A DNA stretch of 64,000 nucleotides from NCBI GenBank assembly GCA_009782775.1, contig WRIL01000006.1:20730-84729 (forward strand). Reading direction: 5' to 3'. Positions 24,459-44,852 of the stretch are shown one piece after another. How positions within the stretch are numbered: the stretch's first letter is position 1; each line of letters begins with the position of its first letter. The notes beneath the pieces were generated by a model. The model searched no databases, was not told the DNA's origin, and was given only the letters and a program-made list of their open reading frames with translations. Source of the stretch: Desulfovibrionaceae bacterium (GTDB lineage Bacteria; Desulfobacterota; Desulfovibrionia; Desulfovibrionales; Desulfovibrionaceae). A program made the position numbers and the translations under genes.

Positions 24459-24535
24459 TGGTGTCCCCGGCGTGAGTCGAACACGCGGCCTACAGCTTAG
24501 GAGGCTGTCGCTCTATCCTGCTGAGCTACGAGGAC
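24459..24535 (-). tRNA. tRNA-Arg(CCT), CCA encoded
   Basis: Cloverleaf: GTCCTCG acceptor, D-arm TAGCTCAGCAGGATAGAGC, anticodon arm ACAGC-CTCCTAA-GCTGT, T-arm with GTTCGACTC, CGGGGAC-A-CCA. Confidence 0.95.
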
Positions 24536-24775
24536 ACTTGGTTTCTGCGACACCAGGTTTTTTGCCGTAATTTCTGCCGAAAACTTAATATTTCCTGGCA
24601 ACTCCGGTATTGCCTCTACCACGGCTCTTTTCCTCGCGTCAACAACGTGCTGGTGATGCTCCAATATCGTCTTGGGATCATTACCCATAATCTGGGCTAC
24701 CGTGCCAACATCCGCGCCCGCCGCAATGGCCTTATCCGTGTCGTGCTCGTGGAATTTTTGCCATATGCCCTCCAT
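24497..24775 (-). pseudogene. Fossil C-terminus of a tyrosine integrase, running into the tRNA-Arg 5' half
   Basis: [46 protein letters not shown] resembles an integrase C-terminus; the ORF end [12 protein letters not shown] is tRNA sequence. Confidence 0.8.
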
Positions 24776-24825
24776 GTTCGGTATGACCTATGGCGTCCGT
24801 TTTTTCCAGCCTACCTCACGGATCT

Positions 24826-25234
24826 GTCATCCAAGCCCAACCGCAAAACATTGACGGCCTCTGTGGAAGACGCTATCAAAGTCGGGGCGGACGACGTTGC
24901 CATCCATATCAACCTTGGAGATCCGGATGAGGCCGAAATGCTCAGAGATTTCGGCAAGGTCGCCCGCGACGCCGAGGAATGGGACATACCCCTTCTGGCC
25001 ATGGTCTATGGACGCGGGCCCCAAATCACCAACAGCCTGGATCCGTGGATCGTCGCCCACTGCGCCAGGGTAGAGGTGGAACTTGGCGCGGATATGGCCG
25101 GTTCCGCCGGACTGTCAGTGGGACGTAATATTTTTCAACATCCCTCCCCCAGCCTGATGTCTATAGCCCTTGCCGGCCTTGTGCACGAAAACTGGAGCGT
25201 GGAAGAGGTCATGAACAAAATGGGGGAAAAATAA
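24826..25234 (+). pseudogene. Decayed 2-amino-3,7-dideoxy-D-threo-hept-6-ulosonate (ADH) synthase
   Basis: [32 protein letters not shown]...[10 protein letters not shown]...ELGAD then directly [13 protein letters not shown]-terminus absent and internal segment missing. Confidence 0.8.
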
Positions 25235-25237
25235 GCC

Positions 25238-26227
25238 ATGCCGGTGATCTTTTTTCTGGCGGATCCTTATACCCTGGGAAACATGACCGCAGCCCTTGAG
25301 GCCGGGGCGGACAATTTCATTGTGCCGCCGGAGCATTTGCCCCAAGCTGAAAACTTGGCCCGCTGCCATTTCACCGCTTCTTCCTCCTTCACCTTCATTT
25401 CTCTGGCCTCCAAGGAGGACGAACGCCGTACCGCGGATCTTCTGCGCAACGGTGTTTCAGTGCTCCTGCGGCATGGTTGGGAGGTTATTCCGGTAGAAAA
25501 CCTCCTGGCGCATTTGCAGGGAACCCCCCAGGGGGGAGAATTGCTTCTGGAGGTTGTTTCGCCTGAAGAGACGCAACTGGCCTTCGGTATCCTGGAAAAA
25601 GGCGTGCACGGTGTAGCCGTGCCGCCTGCGGCCTTGGATAAACTTAAACAGATTTTAAATACCTCGCATAGCAATCAAGCCATCATTCCCCTAAGTGAGG
25701 CGCGGATCCTTGAAATTTCTCCAACAGGCATGGGGCACCGGGTTTGCGTGGATACCCTTTCCAACCTTGGCAAGGGGCAGGGGCTCCTGGTGGGCAATTC
25801 CGCAACCTTTACTTTTTTGGTGAACGCCGAGACCGAACGGAATGAATATGCGCCCCCGCGCCCATTTCGCATAAATGCAGGAGCCGTGCACGCCTATACC
25901 TTCCTGCCAGGCGATTCCACGGCCTATCTGGAAGAATTGCGCGCCGGTTCGGGGGTACTGATTGTCGATTCCCATGGCCGCACAGAGACAGCCGTGGCCG
26001 GACGGATCAAGGTGGAAAGGCGGCCCATGCTGCTTATCCGGGCGGAGGCTGAAGGACGGGAAGGCACAATTTTTTTGCAGAACGCCGAAACCATACACCT
26101 GGTGACCCCGGAAGGAGAAGCCAAGAGCGTGGTGGCGCTTGCCCCCGGAGACAGGGTGCTTTGCCGTCTAGATCAGGCCGGCCGGCATTTTGGCGTACGT
26201 ATAAATGAAAATATCGACGAAAAATGA
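25238..26227 (+). CDS. 3-dehydroquinate synthase II (archaeal type)
   Basis: 329 aa; GHRVCVDTLSNLGKGQGLLVGNSATFTFLVNAETERNEYAPPRPFRINAGAVHAY...FLQNAETIHLV. Confidence 0.93.
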   Translation: MPVIFFLADPYTLGNMTAALEAGADNFIVPPEHLPQAENLARCHFTASSSFTFISLASKEDERRTADLLRNGVSVLLRHGWEVIPVENLLAHLQGTPQGGELLLEVVSPEETQLAFGILEKGVHGVAVPPAALDKLKQILNTSHSNQAIIPLSEARILEISPTGMGHRVCVDTLSNLGKGQGLLVGNSATFTFLVNAETERNEYAPPRPFRINAGAVHAYTFLPGDSTAYLEELRAGSGVLIVDSHGRTETAVAGRIKVERRPMLLIRAEAEGREGTIFLQNAETIHLVTPEGEAKSVVALAPGDRVLCRLDQAGRHFGVRINENIDEK

Positions 26228-27348
26228 GGCCGGCCATGACTATTCCCCAAGCTGAGGCAGATGAAGAAAAACTTCTCGAACCGATTCGCGCGGAAATTAA
26301 TCGCCTGGATGCGGAACTCCTCGTATTGCTCAACCAGCGCGCCGCTTGTAGCCTTAAAGTCGGCGCCATCAAAAAAAAATTCCAAACTCCGGTATTCAAG
26401 CCTGGACGCGAGCAGAGCCTTCTTCGCAAACTAAGCGCGGCCAACCGGGGGCCGCTTGGCGAACGGCAACTGCTGACCATCTACCGGGAAATTTTCTCCG
26501 TCTCCAGGGATTTGCAGCGCCAACCCAGCATTGCCTACCTGGGACCGGAAGGCGCTTTTTCCCATATCGCCTGCCTGGAATATTTCGGTAAGTTGAGTTG
26601 CCTTCTCCCCAAGGATTCTTTCGGAGATATTTTTGAGGCGGTGGAGAGGCGCATCTGTGATTTGGGGGTTATCCCCATGGAAAACTCGTTGCACGGCGCC
26701 ATGTGGCAATGCCTAGATCTTTTCACCACCCATGAGGTTTATGTGCAGGCCGAATGGATCAATCGCATACACCTGAGTCTTATCTCCAGGGAAAACTCCC
26801 TGTCTCCCATCAGAGTGGTCTATTCCCATGCCCAGCCCCTGGGGCAATGCGCGCGCTGGTTGCGCAAAAATCTCCCCGGCGCGGAGCAGGTTTTGGTGGA
26901 GAGTAGCGCCGCCGCCGTACGGCGGGTGACGGACGAAGCCAACAGCGCGGCCATAGGACATGCCGGTCTGGCTGAACGCCTGGATCTGCACGTGCTGGCC
27001 GTGAACCTGGAAGATTCTTCCGACAACTGGACGCGCTTTTTCGCCATTGGCCCGGAACCGGGCGACTGGGCGGAGGCCGACAGATCTTCCATTATTTTCG
27101 CCCTGGGCAAACGTCCCGGCGCCTTGTCGGCGGTGCTGGACGTTTTCGCCGGGGCCGGGATAAACATGAGCAAGCTGGAATCCAGACCTTTGCGCGGCGA
27201 ACGCTGGCATTACATCTTTTTTACGGACCTGGATTGCAATATCCTCGCCCCGGAGCATCAAGCCATTCTGGAACAGGTTCGGGAGCACTGCGACAACCTG
27301 AAGGTCATCGGCGCTTATATGGAGGACAAACATGTCCGCGCCGTATGA
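26224..27348 (+). CDS. pheA: Bifunctional chorismate mutase/prephenate dehydratase
   Basis: 374 aa; chorismate mutase N-term, AYLGPEGAFSHIA, DNWTRFFAIG, ACT domain. Confidence 0.95.
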   Translation: MRPAMTIPQAEADEEKLLEPIRAEINRLDAELLVLLNQRAACSLKVGAIKKKFQTPVFKPGREQSLLRKLSAANRGPLGERQLLTIYREIFSVSRDLQRQPSIAYLGPEGAFSHIACLEYFGKLSCLLPKDSFGDIFEAVERRICDLGVIPMENSLHGAMWQCLDLFTTHEVYVQAEWINRIHLSLISRENSLSPIRVVYSHAQPLGQCARWLRKNLPGAEQVLVESSAAAVRRVTDEANSAAIGHAGLAERLDLHVLAVNLEDSSDNWTRFFAIGPEPGDWAEADRSSIIFALGKRPGALSAVLDVFAGAGINMSKLESRPLRGERWHYIFFTDLDCNILAPEHQAILEQVREHCDNLKVIGAYMEDKHVRAV

Positions 27349-27721
27349 ATTTCAGCATTTGGCAGTGGTCGGAAACCCTTGGGTGGTCGTTCCTCTACTT
27401 GCCATGGAACAAGTCCTGATGGACATCGCCTCGGTCAAAACCGAACCCATGTGGTTCACGGAAGAGAGCTTTTCCGGCGCGGTCATCGGTAGCCACCACC
27501 TTTTCAGGCCTTGCCCGGAACCACTGGAGGCCGCACAAAGAAGCCGGACGGAAAACGCGGGCATGTTTTGCGAATTTACGGCCATGAATCCATATTTCCA
27601 AAATATTCTCGGGCATTATGAAAAAATCCTGCATGAAGCCACGCCTTTCTCCCAGGCAGGCGAGCCGGACGGACTGAACCTGCTGGCCCGCGAGACCGCG
27701 ACCTGGTATGCCGGATGGTGA
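27332..27721 (+). pseudogene. tyrA: Shrunken prephenate dehydrogenase remnant
   Basis: 129 aa; LAVVG / VVVPLLAMEQVL / DIASVKTEPM / GAVIGSHHLFRPCPEP / LEAAQRSRTENAGMFCEFTAMNPYFQ segments in TyrA order, with the Rossmann core and central domain missing. Confidence 0.7.
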
Positions 27722-29013
27722 AATCCATGCAATATACCGTGCACTCCTCCAGCATAAACGGCAGTCTGAGCGTGCCCGCCTCCAAATCACACAGCCTGCG
27801 AGCCATTCTTATGGCCTCCCTGGCCGATGGCATAAGCCGCATCCGCGCCTCGCTGCCATCCCCGGATACCCTGGCCATGATCCAGGCTTGCCGCGCCCTG
27901 GGAGCAGAAATCCTTGAAAAAGGCCCGAATTTGGAAGTGCGCGGACTTGGTGGCCGGCCAAAGATTCCGGATCAGGTGATTGACGTGGGCAATTCCGGCC
28001 AGGTCCTGCGTTTTGTGGCGGCTCTGGCCGCGCTTCTGCCACAATACACAATTTTTACCGGCGATGCCTCCATCCGCTCCATCCGGCCGGTACAACCCCT
28101 GCTGGATGCCCTTTCCGGCCTAGGCGCCTTTGCCGTGTCCAGCAAAGGAGACGGGCACGCCCCCATCATCGTGCGCGGCCCCGCCAAGGCCGGGAATACG
28201 CGCCTGGACGGGGCGGATTCACAACCGGTATCAGCCATGCTTTTCCTGGCCTCCTTTCTGGAAGGCAAGACTACCATCCTGGTGGACAACCCCGGAGAAC
28301 AACCCTGGATCGATCTCACTCTGCACTGGTTGGAACGCCTTGGGATACCCTGCCGACATGATAATTATCGCGAATATACGGTGCGCGGTCCGGCTGGCTA
28401 TTCCGGATTTGATTATACCGTTCCCGGGGACTGGAGTTCCGCCACCTTTCCCCTGGTCGCTGCTCTGATCCAAAATCAGCCTCTGGAACTGCAAAACCTT
28501 GATTTCCATGACCCTCAGGGCGATAAAGCCATTCTGGATGTCCTACGGGCTATGGGCGCGAATTTTATAGCACATGAAGAGGAAAAACGTCTGGAAGTGC
28601 GTTCCCATAACGGTTTGCGTGGTCTGGAGGCCGATCTGAACCACATTATTGACGCCGTGCCCGCGCTGGCCGCCCTAGCCTGTTTCGCCCAAAGCCCAAG
28701 CCTGTTCCGTGGGGTGGAGATCGCCAGGCATAAAGAATGTGACCGCCTGCGGGCCATTGCCTGCGAATTGGGCAAAATGGGCGGCCTGGTGGAAGAATTG
28801 CCCGACGGTCTACGGATCACCCCGGCCAGGTTGCATGGCGCTCTTACAGAAAGCTGGCGGGATCATCGCATCGCCATGTCCATCGCGGTGGCGGCTTTAA
28901 GTTGCGGTGAAACCGTAATTCGGGATAGCGCATGCGTGGCCAAAAGCTTTCCGAGTTTTGTCCGAGCCATGTCCGCTTTGGGCGCGCGCATTGAAGAAAG
29001 CGGCTCTTCATGA
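27715..29013 (+). CDS. aroA: 3-phosphoshikimate 1-carboxyvinyltransferase
   Basis: 432 aa; SLSVPASKSHSLRAILMASLADG, DVGNSGQVLRF, RHKECDRLRAIACELGKMGG, DHRIAMS. Confidence 0.96.
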   Translation: MVKSMQYTVHSSSINGSLSVPASKSHSLRAILMASLADGISRIRASLPSPDTLAMIQACRALGAEILEKGPNLEVRGLGGRPKIPDQVIDVGNSGQVLRFVAALAALLPQYTIFTGDASIRSIRPVQPLLDALSGLGAFAVSSKGDGHAPIIVRGPAKAGNTRLDGADSQPVSAMLFLASFLEGKTTILVDNPGEQPWIDLTLHWLERLGIPCRHDNYREYTVRGPAGYSGFDYTVPGDWSSATFPLVAALIQNQPLELQNLDFHDPQGDKAILDVLRAMGANFIAHEEEKRLEVRSHNGLRGLEADLNHIIDAVPALAALACFAQSPSLFRGVEIARHKECDRLRAIACELGKMGGLVEELPDGLRITPARLHGALTESWRDHRIAMSIAVAALSCGETVIRDSACVAKSFPSFVRAMSALGARIEESGSS

Positions 29014-29546
29014 ATATAATTTTGCTGGGATTCAAGGCCAGCGGTAAAAGCACCCTGGGCCGGACATTGGCTCAAATTTTAGGCCGGAAATTCCTGGATA
29101 CGGATATCCTTGCCGAAGACTTGTACGCAACGGAACACCCTGGAAAACACCCCGATTTCCGGAGCATCAGCCGCGCCCACGGAATGAAAGCTCTACGCGA
29201 TCTTGAGGCCAGGGTCATTCAGGGGTTGCGTTCCGCCGCCTTCAGAGGCGACGAGATCATCGCTACTGGCGGCGGCATTATCCTACGGGAAAAAAATATG
29301 GAAATTTTGGGTTCTCTGGGACCACGCGTTTTTTTGGACACATCCATGCCCCTGCTGGAAGAGCGGCTACGCGGCCAGGATTCTCCGCTCTTTGCCGACA
29401 AAAGCGTGGCGGAACTACACTGGGAACGCTACCCTCTTTACCTGCGTTTTTCAGATTTGCGTTTGCCCATTGCCAGGAATCTGCCGCCTGAAGAATTATC
29501 CTGGCAGCTACTTGATCTGTTACAGGAGGCGGGTTATGGCCAGTAA
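29010..29546 (+). CDS. aroK: Shikimate kinase family protein
   Basis: 178 aa; ILLGFKASGKSTLGR Walker A, FLDTDILAE, ATGGGIILRE; LID region reads DSPLF. Confidence 0.8.
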   Translation: MNIILLGFKASGKSTLGRTLAQILGRKFLDTDILAEDLYATEHPGKHPDFRSISRAHGMKALRDLEARVIQGLRSAAFRGDEIIATGGGIILREKNMEILGSLGPRVFLDTSMPLLEERLRGQDSPLFADKSVAELHWERYPLYLRFSDLRLPIARNLPPEELSWQLLDLLQEAGYGQ

Positions 29547-30672
29547 CGCTTTTGGTCTCTTTTTCCGTTATACCAGTTGGGGAGAATCCCACGGACAGGC
29601 TGTCGGGGTGGTGGTAGACGGCTGCCCGGCCGGAATTCCCCTGGACGAGAAAATGCTGAACGAGGCCTTGGCCCGGCGTGCGCCGGGACGAAATTACTTT
29701 ACCTCCCCCAGGCGGGAAGAGGATCAGGGACGGCTCCTTTCCGGCGTATTTGAAGGGCGCACTACCGGCACCCCCATCAGCATCCTGATCACCAACCGTG
29801 ATGCCCGATCTTCGGCCTATGAACTAATTGCCCCCCTGCTGCGCCCTGGTCATGCCAACTTTACCTATCTCGCCAAATACGGCTATTTCGACCACCAGGG
29901 CGGCGGCCGAGCATCGGCCAGGGAAACAACGGCCAGAGTAGCCGCAGGAGTGGTGGCTCGACAGTTTGCCTCAGAAACCGGAAGTCGGGTTCTTGCTTAC
30001 CTGGGAGAATTGGGAACCAGTCAGGCCACACCGGTAGAGGACCCGGAAACAGCGGCGGCCTATGCCCTCCAAAGTCCGGTGCATGCCCCAGACGTATCTT
30101 CCGAAGCCGCATTCATGGAAGAATTACGCCTAGTCATGGAGGAAAAGGATTCCACGGGTGGGGTAGCGCATTTTCACATCCTGAACACGCCTGTTGGCTT
30201 GGGCGACCCGGTGTATGAAAAATTTCACGCCCGGCTGGCCTATGCCCTTATGAGCATTCCGGCCAGCAAGGGTTTTGAGATCGGCGCGGGCTTCGCAGCC
30301 GCCGCCGGGCGCGGCTCCCGTCTCAATGATTCCTTCGGACTCCGTGAAGGCGTGGTTGTGCCGGCGGGCAACAACGCCGGCGGCGTTCTAGGCGGCATCA
30401 CCACCGGCGAAACGGTTTACGGGCGGGTAGCATTCAAACCGACCTCCAGTATCGGCTTACCGCAAAACACTTTGGATTTGCAAGGGAAACCGGCCACCTT
30501 CCAGTTGCCCGAAGGCTCCCGCCACGATCCCTGTGTGGCCGTCAGAGCCGTGCCGGTGGTGGAGGCCATGTGCTGGCTGGTTCTGGCAGATGCCTTGCTC
30601 ATGCAAAAGGCTGTTGCCTCGCAAAACTCCCGGCCGGTCGCCGCTTTGCCTTTTGCCGGCGATGGGTTATAG
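29536..30672 (+). CDS. aroC: Chorismate synthase
   Basis: 378 aa; FRYTSWGESHGQAVGVVVDGCPAG, GGGRASARETTARVAAG, DPCVAVRAVPVVEAM. Confidence 0.97.
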   Translation: MASNAFGLFFRYTSWGESHGQAVGVVVDGCPAGIPLDEKMLNEALARRAPGRNYFTSPRREEDQGRLLSGVFEGRTTGTPISILITNRDARSSAYELIAPLLRPGHANFTYLAKYGYFDHQGGGRASARETTARVAAGVVARQFASETGSRVLAYLGELGTSQATPVEDPETAAAYALQSPVHAPDVSSEAAFMEELRLVMEEKDSTGGVAHFHILNTPVGLGDPVYEKFHARLAYALMSIPASKGFEIGAGFAAAAGRGSRLNDSFGLREGVVVPAGNNAGGVLGGITTGETVYGRVAFKPTSSIGLPQNTLDLQGKPATFQLPEGSRHDPCVAVRAVPVVEAMCWLVLADALLMQKAVASQNSRPVAALPFAGDGL

Positions 30673-31144: not shown

Positions 31145-32161
31145 ATGCTGGCTCTGTCTGATACGGATCCGCCTCTCCGGGCCTGCCGCCTTTGCGGGCG
31201 TTCCTGCCGGGCCTGCCGTCATGGTTCCGGCGCTGGACACTGTGGGGCGGGAACAGGCATAACTTTGTCTTCGTCCTTGATCCATCACGGCGAAGAACCG
31301 CCCATTTCCGGCCAAAACCTTTCCGGCTCCGAGCGCGGTTCGGGAACTATTTTTTTTGCCCGTTGCCCCCTGCACTGCGTGTTTTGCCAGAACTGGCAGA
31401 TCTCCCAAGCTATTACCGGGACGAAAAACCCCACCAGAGCCTCCGTCTCCCATCGGGAGAGCCATCCGGAGGAACTGGCCGGGATTATGTTGGATCTCGA
31501 GGCGCGAGGAGCGCTGAATATCAACCTGATTTCCCCCACGCCCTATGTACCACAGATCGTCATGGCCTTGCGCCAAGCCAAGACTGCCGGCCTGAACCTG
31601 CCCATCGTATATAACAGCGGAGGGTATGATTCGCTGGAGGCCCTGCGTCTGCTGGACGGCCTCATTGATATTTACCTGCCGGACGCCAAACTGGCCCCGG
31701 AAAGCAAGGCCTCGTCCACGGAAGATGACCTCTTGGCGGCGCGTCTCTTGGGCGTCTCCAATTATGTGCGGGTCAACCGCACGGCCCTTTGGGAAATGTT
31801 CCGGCAATGCGGACATCTGCGCTTGGATGAGCGGGGGGTGGCCTGTCGGGGAGTGCTTATCCGTCACTTGGTGTTGCCGGGCAACCTGGCCCGCACCAGA
31901 CAGTTGATCCCCTGGCTGGCTGAAAATTTTGGCCCGGATTTATGCCTCAGCCTTATGGCCCAATACCAGCCCCTGTACCTGGTACACAACCGCCCGAAGG
32001 ACTTCAGGGATTTGCCGGATCTGAGCCGGACCCTGCGGGAAGAAGAATACGATGAGGCCGTGGACTTGGCCATGGAATACGGACTTACCCGGACCTTTAT
32101 CCAAGAATTGGCCTCAGCCGGGGAATACCTGCCGAATTTCACCCGCCGTAAAGTTTTCTGA
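31145..32161 (+). CDS. Radical SAM protein (PflA-like activase family)
   Basis: ARCPLHCVFCQNWQIS (Cx3Cx2C); upstream CRLCGRSCRACRHGSGAGHC cysteine motif. Confidence 0.88.
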   Translation: MLALSDTDPPLRACRLCGRSCRACRHGSGAGHCGAGTGITLSSSLIHHGEEPPISGQNLSGSERGSGTIFFARCPLHCVFCQNWQISQAITGTKNPTRASVSHRESHPEELAGIMLDLEARGALNINLISPTPYVPQIVMALRQAKTAGLNLPIVYNSGGYDSLEALRLLDGLIDIYLPDAKLAPESKASSTEDDLLAARLLGVSNYVRVNRTALWEMFRQCGHLRLDERGVACRGVLIRHLVLPGNLARTRQLIPWLAENFGPDLCLSLMAQYQPLYLVHNRPKDFRDLPDLSRTLREEEYDEAVDLAMEYGLTRTFIQELASAGEYLPNFTRRKVF

Positions 32162-32228
32162 CCCGTCCTCTTAAGACTGATCCCAGGCCAAATTGTCAAC
32201 GATTTAATCTTGGATTATAGGTTAGCCT

Positions 32229-33317
32229 ATGCGTCCGAAAAGAGAAATCCACGTCACCCGCCCCTGGTTGCCCCCCAAGGAAAATTTTTTGCGTTACGTG
32301 GATGAAATTTACGCCAGCCGCCAGTTGACCAACCGGGGACCGTTGCACGACGAACTGGAACGCAAGCTGGGGGAGCGGCTGGAAACCGAAAAGCCCCTGC
32401 TCACGGCCAACGCCACCCTGGGGCTTATCCTGGCCCTGCATGCCCTGGACATCAGCGAAGGCGAAGTCATCACCACCCCTTTTTCTTACGCGGCCACGGT
32501 GAATGCGGTTTTGTGGGAACGCTGCCTTCCGGTTTTCGCGGATATCCGGGCCGACAACCTGACCCTGGACCCGGACAAAGTGGAACAGGCCATCACCAGG
32601 CGCACCAGAGCCATTTTGCCAGTGCATGTCTATGGCATCCCCTGCGCCATGGAGCCCATCCAATACCTTGCCGACAAACATGGCCTTAAGGTCATCTATG
32701 ACGCGGCACACGCCTTTGGAGTAAAGTTAGGGGGCAAATCCCTGCTGGCCAACGGAGATGTGAGCGTCTGTTCCCTGCATGCCACCAAGCTTTTTAATAC
32801 GGCTGAAGGCGGCTTGATCCTAGTCCGGGATCCACAGACGCGCCATAGGCTGGAACTGCTGCGCCGCTTCGGTCATCATTATGACGATTACCAGGAGCCG
32901 GGAATCAATGCCAAATTCTCCGAACCGCACGCCGCCCTGGGACTGGCGTGCCTGGATCATCTGGGAGAAATCATTGCGTCTAGGCGGGAGTTAACCGCTT
33001 GGTACGATCAGCGTCTGATCGGGCTGCTCCAACGTCCTTCCTGGCCCGCGGACTTGGAATATAACTACGCTTACTACCCGGTGCTGTTCAAAGATGAAGA
33101 ACAGCTTCTGCGCGTTTTCCAGGCCCTGGCCGACATCGGGGTTTACCCCAGGCGCTACTTTTTCCCTTCGCTGAACACCTTGCCCTATCTTAACGGTGCG
33201 GCCGCCTGCCCGGTGTCGGAACGGTCCGCCCGCCTGGCGGCTTGCCTACCTCTTTTCCCAGGTTTACTGGAAGAAGAAATAGAGGAAATCTGCCGGGTGA
33301 TTAAAGAGCGGCTCTGA
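32229..33317 (+). CDS. DegT/DnrJ/EryC1/StrS sugar aminotransferase
   Basis: 362 aa; YDAAHAFGV, SLHATKLFNTAEGG (PLP lysine). Confidence 0.93.
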   Translation: MRPKREIHVTRPWLPPKENFLRYVDEIYASRQLTNRGPLHDELERKLGERLETEKPLLTANATLGLILALHALDISEGEVITTPFSYAATVNAVLWERCLPVFADIRADNLTLDPDKVEQAITRRTRAILPVHVYGIPCAMEPIQYLADKHGLKVIYDAAHAFGVKLGGKSLLANGDVSVCSLHATKLFNTAEGGLILVRDPQTRHRLELLRRFGHHYDDYQEPGINAKFSEPHAALGLACLDHLGEIIASRRELTAWYDQRLIGLLQRPSWPADLEYNYAYYPVLFKDEEQLLRVFQALADIGVYPRRYFFPSLNTLPYLNGAAACPVSERSARLAACLPLFPGLLEEEIEEICRVIKERL

Positions 33318-33337
33318 AGCAAGCCCCGGAGAAACAC

Positions 33338-34471
33338 GTGCCCCCGAAACTGACCATACTCTGCCTTGCTTTCAACCAAGCCGCCTTCTTGTCGCAGACC
33401 CTGGAAGGCTTTGTCAGCCAGAAGACCAACTTCCCCTACGAGGCGATCGTCGCCGATGACTGCTCCACTGACGGCAGCGCGGCAATTATCCTTGAGTACG
33501 CCCGCATATATCCGCGAATCATCAGGCCGGTGTTGCGCGAGCGCAACTTGGGCATCCAAAAAAATCTTACTGAAACCTTCAGCCTTGCCCAATCGGAATA
33601 TGTGGCCCTGTGCGAAGGGGATGATTACTGGACAGATCCGGAAAAATTACAGTCACAGGTGAATCACCTGGAGACCCACCCTGGAGACGCTCTTTGCTTT
33701 CACTACACCACTTTGCAATACGAGGACGGTGGACGTACAGGAGAGAGCTCCATATATCCGGCGGGCCTCCCGCATCAGCCGCCCTTGTTTCTGGAAGATC
33801 TCCTGCTGGGCAATTTCATGCACACGGCCTCGGTGGTCTACCGCTGGCGCTTTCGAAGTGAGAAACTGCGAGAGGCGCTCCCTCCGGACATCCTGCCCCT
33901 GGACTGGTTTTTGCACTTGCTGCATGCCGAACGTGGGAGCATCGGATTTATTCCCAGGAACATGGCGGTTTACCGCCGCCACGCCGGCGGCTGTTGGTGG
34001 GATGAAAACCAGGGCGAATTCCTGCGTAAAAACGGCCCGGCCCAAATCCGCTGTTACCAGGCGGTCAGACGGCATTTCGGCTTTCACGGCGAAACCCTGG
34101 ACATTTTGCTCTACTGCTGCCTGCTGAGTTTTACGTTGGCCGGGGATCGTGAACGCCTACGGGAAACCTGCGCTTTGTACACGGAAATTTACCAGAAGAC
34201 GCTCCAAAGGGAAGACGCGGAGAGACGCTCCCCGGCCTTCAACGCGGCGGTGCGCAAGCTTCTCGAAAAAATTCTGGACGGCTTGGCCGCCAGGAATAAA
34301 GAGGAACAGATGCTTTCTATTCTGGAGCTTTACGCCCGCGCATACAGCGGCCTTAATGGCCTGGTAGAGGAAGACGAGGCCGGACGCCGGCATTTTTTTC
34401 TTCTGCACCGGGATCTGCGCCGCAAGATCAAAACCCAAAGACAGGACAGAACTAATGGCCGGACATGCTGA
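33338..34471 (+). CDS. Glycosyltransferase family 2 (GTG start)
   Basis: EAIVADDCSTDGS...ALCEGDDYWTDPEKLQ. Confidence 0.92.
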   Translation: MPPKLTILCLAFNQAAFLSQTLEGFVSQKTNFPYEAIVADDCSTDGSAAIILEYARIYPRIIRPVLRERNLGIQKNLTETFSLAQSEYVALCEGDDYWTDPEKLQSQVNHLETHPGDALCFHYTTLQYEDGGRTGESSIYPAGLPHQPPLFLEDLLLGNFMHTASVVYRWRFRSEKLREALPPDILPLDWFLHLLHAERGSIGFIPRNMAVYRRHAGGCWWDENQGEFLRKNGPAQIRCYQAVRRHFGFHGETLDILLYCCLLSFTLAGDRERLRETCALYTEIYQKTLQREDAERRSPAFNAAVRKLLEKILDGLAARNKEEQMLSILELYARAYSGLNGLVEEDEAGRRHFFLLHRDLRRKIKTQRQDRTNGRTC

Positions 34472-36206
34472 GGCGGCCGTCCAGGCGCGCATCCACCTAA
34501 CGCCCTGCCCCAAAACCTATACGCGAGATTTGGATAAGGCCGCGCCCCCGGCGGAGACCATCACCCGCGTCCGGAAACGCTTGGCCGCCCTGGATTTGGA
34601 CATTCTTACGGAAACACGGCGGGTGGATAGGGGCCGCCTGGGCATTCCCGTATATATGAGCGTTTGCGGCACGGACGCGCGCCGGGTAATCCCAGCCCGC
34701 AAACAAATGGGCAAAGGTTCCTCGCCAGAGCAGGCCGAAGCCTCGGCCCTCATGGAACTCATTGAACGTTACTCCTTTTTTTCTTTCTGGCGGCGTAGGC
34801 CGCATATGTTGCGCTTCACTTGGTCCGAGGCCGAAGCTAGTTTCGGTGAGGAATTGCTGCCCCTTGCCGTCATGTTGCAATCGGTGCAAGAAAACGATCT
34901 GGAGCCGGATCTGGCCCGCCGCGTACTGGATCTTGTGTCCTGGAGCTTTTACCCTGCCACCGGTCTGCCGGATGAGCAAACCTTCTGGCTGCCTCTGGAC
35001 TGGTTCAAACTCCTGGGTGAATTCAACGGCGCTTCCGCCGGAAACACGCCGGAAGAGTCCTTGCTCCATGGCTTGGGCGAATTGGTGGAACGCCATGTCT
35101 GCTGCCTGGCGGATCGGCGCCATAAGCCTTTACCGACCATTGTGGGGAACGGCGGCGATGAGGTTCTGGCCGAACTTGGAAAATCCTTTGAACGAAATGG
35201 CGTACGCCTCATCCTCAAAGATTTTTCCCTGGGCCTGCCCTTGCCCACTGTGGCCGCCCTGGCCTGGGATCCGGCCACCTTTCCGGAAAGCTCGGAAATA
35301 GTCTTCACCGCCGGCACAGCCTCCACTCCGGCCAAGGCGGCCATCCGGGCCGTAACCGAGGTGGCGCAACTGGCCGGAGATTTTTGCGGAGGCTCCTGTT
35401 ATGAAGCCTCCGGTCTGCCCAAATTCGGCAACCTGGAAGAAGCCGCCTGGCTCATGCCGGGACCGACTGTTTCACTGGCCCAACTGCCGGACATCGGCAG
35501 GAACGATTTTTACGAAGAACTCCTGGTGACGGCCAAGGGCCTTGCTCCTCTGAAAGTCTACGCAGTTGATACAACCCATCCGCAAATCGGCATCCCGGCG
35601 CATTATAGCCTAATTCCAGGCCTGCATTTCCGGGAGCGTGACCGCAACCAGAGCCTGGGACTATTCGTGGGGCGCAAACTCACCGAAGATGGCACGGATG
35701 ATGAAATAGCCGCCGGACTGAACGTGCTGGCTGGGTGTTACCCCAAGGCGCATTTTCTCCCTTTTTTCCAAGGTATGCTGGATGTGCGCGGGCGGCGTTT
35801 TGTTTTGGCCAGGGAAAATTTTCTCCAGGCCCTGTCCATGCAACCAGAGGCGGAGAGCGCGGCCATGTCCGCCTTTTACGCCGGTTATGCCGCCACCCTC
35901 ATGGAAGACTGGTCAGGCGCCCTGCCTCAACTCGCGCAGGCCCTGGAACTTTGCCCGGAAATGAAAGAATACGCCAGTTTTCTGGGTGTAGCCCATTTCA
36001 AGACCGGCGACTATGCGGAAGCGGCCCACGCCTTTACGACCGCGCTCAAAATCGACAAAGGTTCGGCCGTGGATCTGGCCAACCTGGGCCTGTGCCGGAA
36101 ATTCATGGGGGAAAAAAACGAAGCGGTCAGCTTGCTCAGGGCCGCCCTGGAACTGGATCCTGGCCTGGGTTTTGCCCATGAACAACTGCTGGAATTGGAG
36201 AATTAA
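34455..36206 (+). CDS. YcaO-domain protein with C-terminal TPR repeats
   Basis: GKGSSPEQAEASALMELIERYS and NTPEESLLHGLGELVERH YcaO motifs; TPR-like repeats from about residue 430. Confidence 0.92.
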   Translation: MAGHAEAAVQARIHLTPCPKTYTRDLDKAAPPAETITRVRKRLAALDLDILTETRRVDRGRLGIPVYMSVCGTDARRVIPARKQMGKGSSPEQAEASALMELIERYSFFSFWRRRPHMLRFTWSEAEASFGEELLPLAVMLQSVQENDLEPDLARRVLDLVSWSFYPATGLPDEQTFWLPLDWFKLLGEFNGASAGNTPEESLLHGLGELVERHVCCLADRRHKPLPTIVGNGGDEVLAELGKSFERNGVRLILKDFSLGLPLPTVAALAWDPATFPESSEIVFTAGTASTPAKAAIRAVTEVAQLAGDFCGGSCYEASGLPKFGNLEEAAWLMPGPTVSLAQLPDIGRNDFYEELLVTAKGLAPLKVYAVDTTHPQIGIPAHYSLIPGLHFRERDRNQSLGLFVGRKLTEDGTDDEIAAGLNVLAGCYPKAHFLPFFQGMLDVRGRRFVLARENFLQALSMQPEAESAAMSAFYAGYAATLMEDWSGALPQLAQALELCPEMKEYASFLGVAHFKTGDYAEAAHAFTTALKIDKGSAVDLANLGLCRKFMGEKNEAVSLLRAALELDPGLGFAHEQLLELEN

Positions 36207-36208
36207 CC

Positions 36209-36877
36209 ATGGAAATTCCTTTGGCGGTTTATGGAGCGGGCGGCGCGGGCCGAGAGCTGCGCGATTTGGCCATGCAAATGGATGTCTTCGCCGGACGGGA
36301 GCGGGAAATTATCTTTGTGGACGATCTGCTTAACGGGCCTCTGTTTGAGGAAAGCCGGCTATACTCTTTCACCAAAGCGCAAGAACTCTTTTCGCCGCCG
36401 GACTTGCGCTTTGTCATCGGTCTAGGCGAACCGGAGGAACGAGCTTCCCTGGCCGAAAAGGTCCTGGCCGCCGGCTACGGCCTGGAGAACCTGATCCACC
36501 CCTCGGCGCGCCCGCCGGATTCCGCCCGCCTTGGACGAGGAGTGGCGCTTTATCCAGGCGTGTTCCTGGCCTGCGATGTCTGCCTGGAAGATAATGTCCT
36601 GCTCATGGCCTCAGTGGCGGTGAGCCATGATGCGTATGTTGGCGCTCACAGCGTATGCGCCGCAGGGGCTAAAATAGCCGGGCATTGCCTGGTGGGTCGG
36701 CGTTGTTTTTTGGGCATGAACTGCGCTGTCCGTGAAAATACCAGCATCGGCGACGGCGGCGTCATCGGCATGGGGGCGGTGGTTTTGGAAAACGTGGGGG
36801 AAAATATGCTGGTTACAGGCAACCCGGGCCGAGCCAAGCCGAAACCGGCGGGTTTCCGGGTATTCGGGAGAGAATAG
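36209..36877 (+). CDS. NeuD-like sugar O/N-acyltransferase (left-handed beta-helix)
   Basis: Hexapeptide repeats; MEIPLAVYGAGGAGRELRDLAMQM N-term; NTSIGDGGVIGMGAVVLENVGENMLVTGNPGR. Confidence 0.9.
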   Translation: MEIPLAVYGAGGAGRELRDLAMQMDVFAGREREIIFVDDLLNGPLFEESRLYSFTKAQELFSPPDLRFVIGLGEPEERASLAEKVLAAGYGLENLIHPSARPPDSARLGRGVALYPGVFLACDVCLEDNVLLMASVAVSHDAYVGAHSVCAAGAKIAGHCLVGRRCFLGMNCAVRENTSIGDGGVIGMGAVVLENVGENMLVTGNPGRAKPKPAGFRVFGRE

Positions 36878-44291: not shown

Positions 44292-44852
44292 ATGTCTGAC
44301 GCAAGTCCGATGGCCCCAAATTCCATCCCCGAACGGGCCTGCCTGATCCTCATCGGCATGGCTGGAGCCGGAAAAACCAAAATGGGTCTGGAATTGGCCC
44401 GTCTGCTGAACTGGGCGCATGTGGACGCGGATAGCCTCATTGAGGCGGCCTACGGGACAAACCTGCAACGCCTGGTGGACCGGGTGGACCGGGAAACCTT
44501 TCTGGACATGGAAGCCGCAATCATCCAAAGTATCCGCCTGCAACGCTGCGTTATCTCCACCGGAGGGAGCGTGGTTTACCGGGAAAAATCCATGAAATAC
44601 CTGCACGGCCTGGGGCCGGTCATGAGACTGGATGTGCCCATGAACATCATCCTGGAGCGCATCGCCCGCAGGCCGGATCGCGGTCTGGTCATAGGGCTTG
44701 GGCAGACTGTGGAAGGCCTCTTCCATGAACGCCGCCTGCTCTATAAAAAATACTCTTCCTTGGCTATCGTTGGCGGAAACAGGCCAGCGCAGGATTACGC
44801 CCGGCAGGCCATGCCAGAAGTCCTTGAAGCCCTGCGCCGCTGGGCAGCGTAA
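44292..44852 (+). CDS. Shikimate kinase-family P-loop kinase (second paralogue)
   Basis: LIGMAGAGKTKMGLELARLL; VDADSLIE; STGGSVVYREKSM. Confidence 0.8.
   Translation: MSDASPMAPNSIPERACLILIGMAGAGKTKMGLELARLLNWAHVDADSLIEAAYGTNLQRLVDRVDRETFLDMEAAIIQSIRLQRCVISTGGSVVYREKSMKYLHGLGPVMRLDVPMNIILERIARRPDRGLVIGLGQTVEGLFHERRLLYKKYSSLAIVGGNRPAQDYARQAMPEVLEALRRWAA

Follow-up and report, generated by a model that had tools for sequence, protein, structure and literature searches.

The enzyme 2-amino-3,7-dideoxy-D-threo-hept-6-ulosonate (ADH) synthase catalyses step one of the archaeal-type (DKFP/ADH) aromatic pathway, an aldol reaction between DKFP and aspartate semialdehyde. Its MJ0400 type is represented by the curated family TIGR01949 and by the MJ0400 structure itself (PDB 2qjg). 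Enzymes of this class rely for catalysis on a Schiff-base lysine and a general-base aspartate (PMC2728841). Two termite-gut Desulfovibrio ectosymbionts, 'Ca. Desulfovibrio trichonymphae' Rs-N31 and phylotype ZnDsv-02, have been described as having reduced genomes with many pseudogenes and lipopolysaccharide gene losses, and both were reported to retain the synthesis of all 20 amino acids (PMC7608387). The genome considered here (G000) is a 1.74-Mb draft in 36 contigs, 84.6% complete, from which a stretch of 64,000 nucleotides (the window; C6:20730-84729) was analysed. It resembles these ectosymbionts in being a small Desulfovibrio-type genome and in that KdsA was not found in it, and if the loss described below is real, its lineage differs from theirs, since those two keep all their amino acid pathways, whereas here aromatic synthesis itself erodes. 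As regards KdsA, no PF00793 gene is present in the draft, whereas one occurs in each of the six congeners and in D. cuneatus; it is possible that KDO/LPS synthesis has been lost or that the gene fell into an assembly gap. The nearest relatives are Desulfovibrionaceae, several of them recorded only as metagenome-assembled genomes, which we take from isolate naming to be of termite-gut origin, and it is only from these relatives that we infer a termite host for the present genome.

The best explanation of the locus, to which we assign a probability of approximately 0.82, is that it contains a non-functional ADH synthase remnant in an operon under piecemeal decay, and that aromatic biosynthesis is being lost stepwise in what is probably a gut-associated, small-genome lineage of the Desulfovibrionaceae. 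The features at the centre of this reading are the following:

24818-25234, plus strand: remnant of an ADH synthase of the MJ0400 type (translation, orthologue alignment, NCBIfam)
25087-25095, plus strand: scar of a 141-bp in-frame deletion, with a single CGCGGATAT remaining (comparison with L032)

The open reading frame spans 24647-25234, and homology to ADH synthase starts only at 24818, as seen in both the translation and the orthologue alignment. Lesions were defined against L032, the closest full-length relative, of whose 267 residues the remnant retains 84 to ~135 and the last ~90 minus the deleted block. The first match is to residue 84, so that 83 N-terminal residues are missing, and a further 141 bp have been lost internally without a change of frame. 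In L032, CGCGGACAT is present at both edges of the stretch deleted in the window, where one such motif is left; because the two copies bracket that stretch, slippage between these short (9-bp) direct repeats is suggested. Alignment of L032 to MJ0400, from which the MJ0400 residue numbers were counted, places K184 and the VVAGGP strand within the internal deletion and D33 in the lost N-terminus. The proton-donor Y153 is kept in AMVYGRG in the orthologue and MJ0400 alignments, and this region and the C-terminal GRNIFQH motif still align with the family. Lacking D33, K184 and the AGGP strand, the remnant is predicted not to be a working member of it, and loss of activity, judged from sequence, is well supported by the absence of both the Schiff-base lysine and the general-base aspartate.

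These results bear out most of what an earlier note had read from the translation, namely an abrupt start of homology, ELGAD joined directly to the downstream motif, the disappearance of the lysine segment and the AGGP strand without a frameshift, and an enzyme that should be dead; the N-terminal loss it described is likewise real, and only its extent, put at ~90 residues, was overstated. The deleted segment is directly visible in 12 of 12 aligned orthologues, and more than 80% of 66 orthologues have residues at the core columns gapped in the remnant, which excludes the possibility that functional relatives lack the segment as well. The similarity is not due to chance (up to 78% identity to orthologues, E 1e-43; 78% to L032 over the first segment), and among curated families the remnant matches NF005556 and TIGR01949 best, with 151.9 bits, far below the cut-off of 299.45. 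Otherwise invariant columns are altered in 3 of 43 cases, more than in any orthologue (n=66). First- and second-position changes show no overall excess in the remnant relative to an intact orthologue, and since its overall substitution pattern is thus not accelerated, the inactivation looks recent.

The DNA on the left of the remnant contains three further features:

24557-24775, minus strand: decayed C-terminus of a tyrosine recombinase, cut off near the ADH synthase junction (recombinase match)
24459-24535, minus strand: tRNA-Arg (CCT), of which 24459-24503 recurs at contig C6:8080-8124 as the att site
1-24503 of the window plus C6:8080-20729: prophage of ~37 kb with a contractile tail, inserted in tRNA-Arg(CCT) and lying left of it, delimited by the 45-bp att repeat

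The recombinase tail has no Pfam or PHROG match; its similarity (36.5% identity, E 3e-4) is to a tyrosine recombinase ORF of 357 aa that lacks annotation and lies on a plasmid of Nitratidesulfovibrio vulgaris (NZ_CP116247.1; L185 473-1546). The junction DNA had earlier been called integrase-derived, which this decayed C-terminus supports, with the qualification that it is not part of the neighbouring prophage. It is the 3' 45 bp of the tRNA gene that are repeated, the two copies bounding the tailed prophage, and since the prophage stops at this att site and carries an intact integrase of its own, the truncation of the ADH synthase lies outside it. Prophage genes include those for tail sheath, portal, terminase gpA, primase and a ParB-methyltransferase fusion, and the intact tyrosine integrase is found at the far end.

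On the other side, the remnant is followed by the remainder of an aro operon, and further lesions were found in a trp operon on another contig:

25238-26227, plus strand: 3-dehydroquinate synthase II (DHQS II, PF01959), full length (Pfam and alignment)
26224-27348, plus strand: pheA, chorismate mutase - prephenate dehydratase - ACT, full length (domain search, alignment)
27332-27721, plus strand: tyrA (prephenate dehydrogenase) remnant, 129 aa (comparison with relatives)
27715-29013, plus strand: aroA (EPSP synthase), intact (domain search, alignment, NCBIfam)
29010-29546, plus strand: aroK-like shikimate kinase, operon copy (domain search, NCBIfam)
29536-30672, plus strand: aroC (chorismate synthase), intact (NCBIfam, locus comparison)
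44292-44852: homoserine kinase of the Desulfovibrio shikimate-kinase-like type, a separate ORF (NF040667 over cut-off)
G000:C2:100926-106890 (L166 5930-11890): trp operon with trpG missing and trpE-trpD fused

The order of genes from the remnant to aroC matches that in L036 (Iy174_bin20), where ADH synthase and tyrA are intact. DHQS II aligns with positions 19-344 of the 344 in the PF01959 profile (321.5 bits) with no gapped core columns, in agreement with the earlier view that it is full length; it departs from 3 of 98 invariant columns, a level of change also seen among orthologues, and scores 420 against an NCBIfam equivalog cut-off of 508, under which intact relatives also fall (464 and 477). 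In pheA all core columns are present with few changes at invariant ones, aroA is unchanged at every invariant column (the gapped columns in its alignment are due to distant rows that belong to another subfamily), and both aroA and aroC pass their NCBIfam equivalog cut-offs. The pathway is therefore not dead throughout. By contrast with these genes, tyrA has lost ~55 codons of the NAD-binding region, a loss whose boundary is weakly anchored, and ~79 codons of the central region, again with the frame kept. AroDE, which follows aroC in G001, G004 and G025, is absent from that place here. Both the source of the DHQS II substrate, ADH synthase, and the consumer of its product, AroDE, are missing from the draft. 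Further along the window, genes for radical SAM, aminotransferase, glycosyltransferase, YcaO-TPR and hexapeptide-transferase proteins lie in a row (31145-36877).

The trp operon retains trpD, C, F, B and A, and trpE and trpD form an in-frame fusion of 855 codons in which the TrpE motifs GTRxRG, VDLGRNDLG and SGAPK, kept by relatives, are eroded; the TrpE score is 289 bits vs 386 for G001. In the close relative G004, trpE and trpG are likewise absent upstream of trpD. Pathway loss had already been proposed as one reading of the locus, and the tyrA remnant, the missing AroDE, the lost trpG and the eroded TrpE motifs are lesions beyond those on which that proposal was based. In G001, tyrA seems to encode chorismate mutase fused to prephenate dehydrogenase (G001:C73; L133 7404-8552), and no separate pheA was seen in the operon that carries it.

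A first alternative would be that steps 1 and 3-4 have been lost permanently, and that AroK, AroA and AroC, together with PheA, stay under selection, with shikimate or a relative of it imported from the gut and still turned into chorismate. This would account for the intact state of these four genes alongside a dead ADH synthase and an absent AroDE, and the same split in a more advanced state is seen in G002 (96% complete), where ADH synthase, DHQS II and AroE are all absent while AroC (over its curated cut-off) and an AroA-like protein are retained. The one PF01791 protein considered as a hidden ADH synthase in G002 is of the LsrF type (NF006081 over cut-off). We nevertheless consider this alternative unlikely because the tyrosine and tryptophan branches are damaged too: with TrpE/TrpG eroded or lost and TyrA lost, no fewer than two routes out of chorismate are closed. 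Furthermore, DHQS II would be useless yet looks intact, no transporter was identified, and AroDE might be encoded in the 15% of the genome that is missing. Menaquinone synthesis was considered as a reason for keeping chorismate and rejected, as PF02621 was not found in the draft, and a search of the draft for the aromatic amino acid permease PF03222 found none, which speaks against the preferred reading of stepwise loss.

It is also rather doubtful that the remnant is itself being kept, as a short peptide or as a translated leader coupling translation to DHQS II. Its open frame is stop-free, its TAA sits 3 nt before the DHQS II ATG, and cistrons overlap or abut throughout the operon, with ATGA stop/start pairs. 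Each of the three deletions inside pathway genes, one in ADH synthase and two in tyrA, has kept the frame, an outcome with a chance of ~1/27 if they are independent and neutral. Open frames are, however, to be expected in recent remnants, and neither ribosome-binding nor promoter evidence emerged, the single weak match to a promoter being no better than expected by chance.

Still less probable is that an intact ADH synthase resides in the unassembled 15% of the genome, leaving the remnant as a redundant relic. As the draft is 84.6% complete, a second ADH synthase or AroDE may indeed belong to what is missing, which could also explain some of the negative searches, and functions were assigned by homology; many more distant relatives have at least two matches to the ADH synthase family per genome, and the intact DHQS II would also fit. 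Against this, G001, G003 and G004 each have a single PF01791 gene, adjoining DHQS II, and the tyrA and trpE/trpG lesions and the absence of AroDE would be left unexplained. Within the draft, the remnant is the sole PF01791 gene; DAHP synthase (no PF00793 protein) and AroB were not found, nor was an AroE domain, nor AroDE by protein search at E<=1. The suggestion that ADH comes from another locus is accordingly disfavoured. The PF00793 match in G003 (L112), considered as a DAHP synthase, is KdsA by its sequence and by its KDO-phosphatase and pyrG neighbours.

An assembly artefact, in which unrelated DNA was joined at 24818 and the gene collapsed at ~25090, is very improbable, for although the genome is a draft in 36 contigs and neither junction was found elsewhere (a weak test, covering viral contigs only), a 9-bp repeat is probably too short for assembler collapse, the frame is kept and comparable lesions are seen in tyrA and at trpE-trpD, the latter on another contig.

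Under stepwise loss of aromatic biosynthesis, the junction with the dead integrase tail would have taken the N-terminal third of the ADH synthase and presumably the upstream region of the operon, and the 141-bp deletion between the direct repeats removed, as the alignment shows, the segment with the catalytic lysine; the sequence of these two events is one that we infer. Because ADH could then not be made, the organism would most likely have to take up aromatic amino acids, or late precursors, from its environment. Frame-keeping deletions may have been tolerated because the downstream cistrons overlap or abut, and frameshifts would disturb genes among them that are still needed; the in-frame deletions and the in-frame trpE-trpD fusion are weak evidence that this coupling constrains decay. 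With neither the enzyme that supplies DHQS II nor the one that uses its product present in the draft, recency or coupling best explains why the DHQS II gene is intact.

The process, ordinary gene loss caught partway, is already known, and the example is new. Should the reading with imported shikimate prove true, it would suggest that a pathway intermediate is cross-fed in the gut. On the preferred reading of stepwise loss, the locus would be a snapshot of the dismantling of a coupled operon, in which the committing enzyme and one terminal branch go first, the frame is kept and the middle steps linger, and the genus offers genomes with intact, partial and completely lost pathways for comparison.
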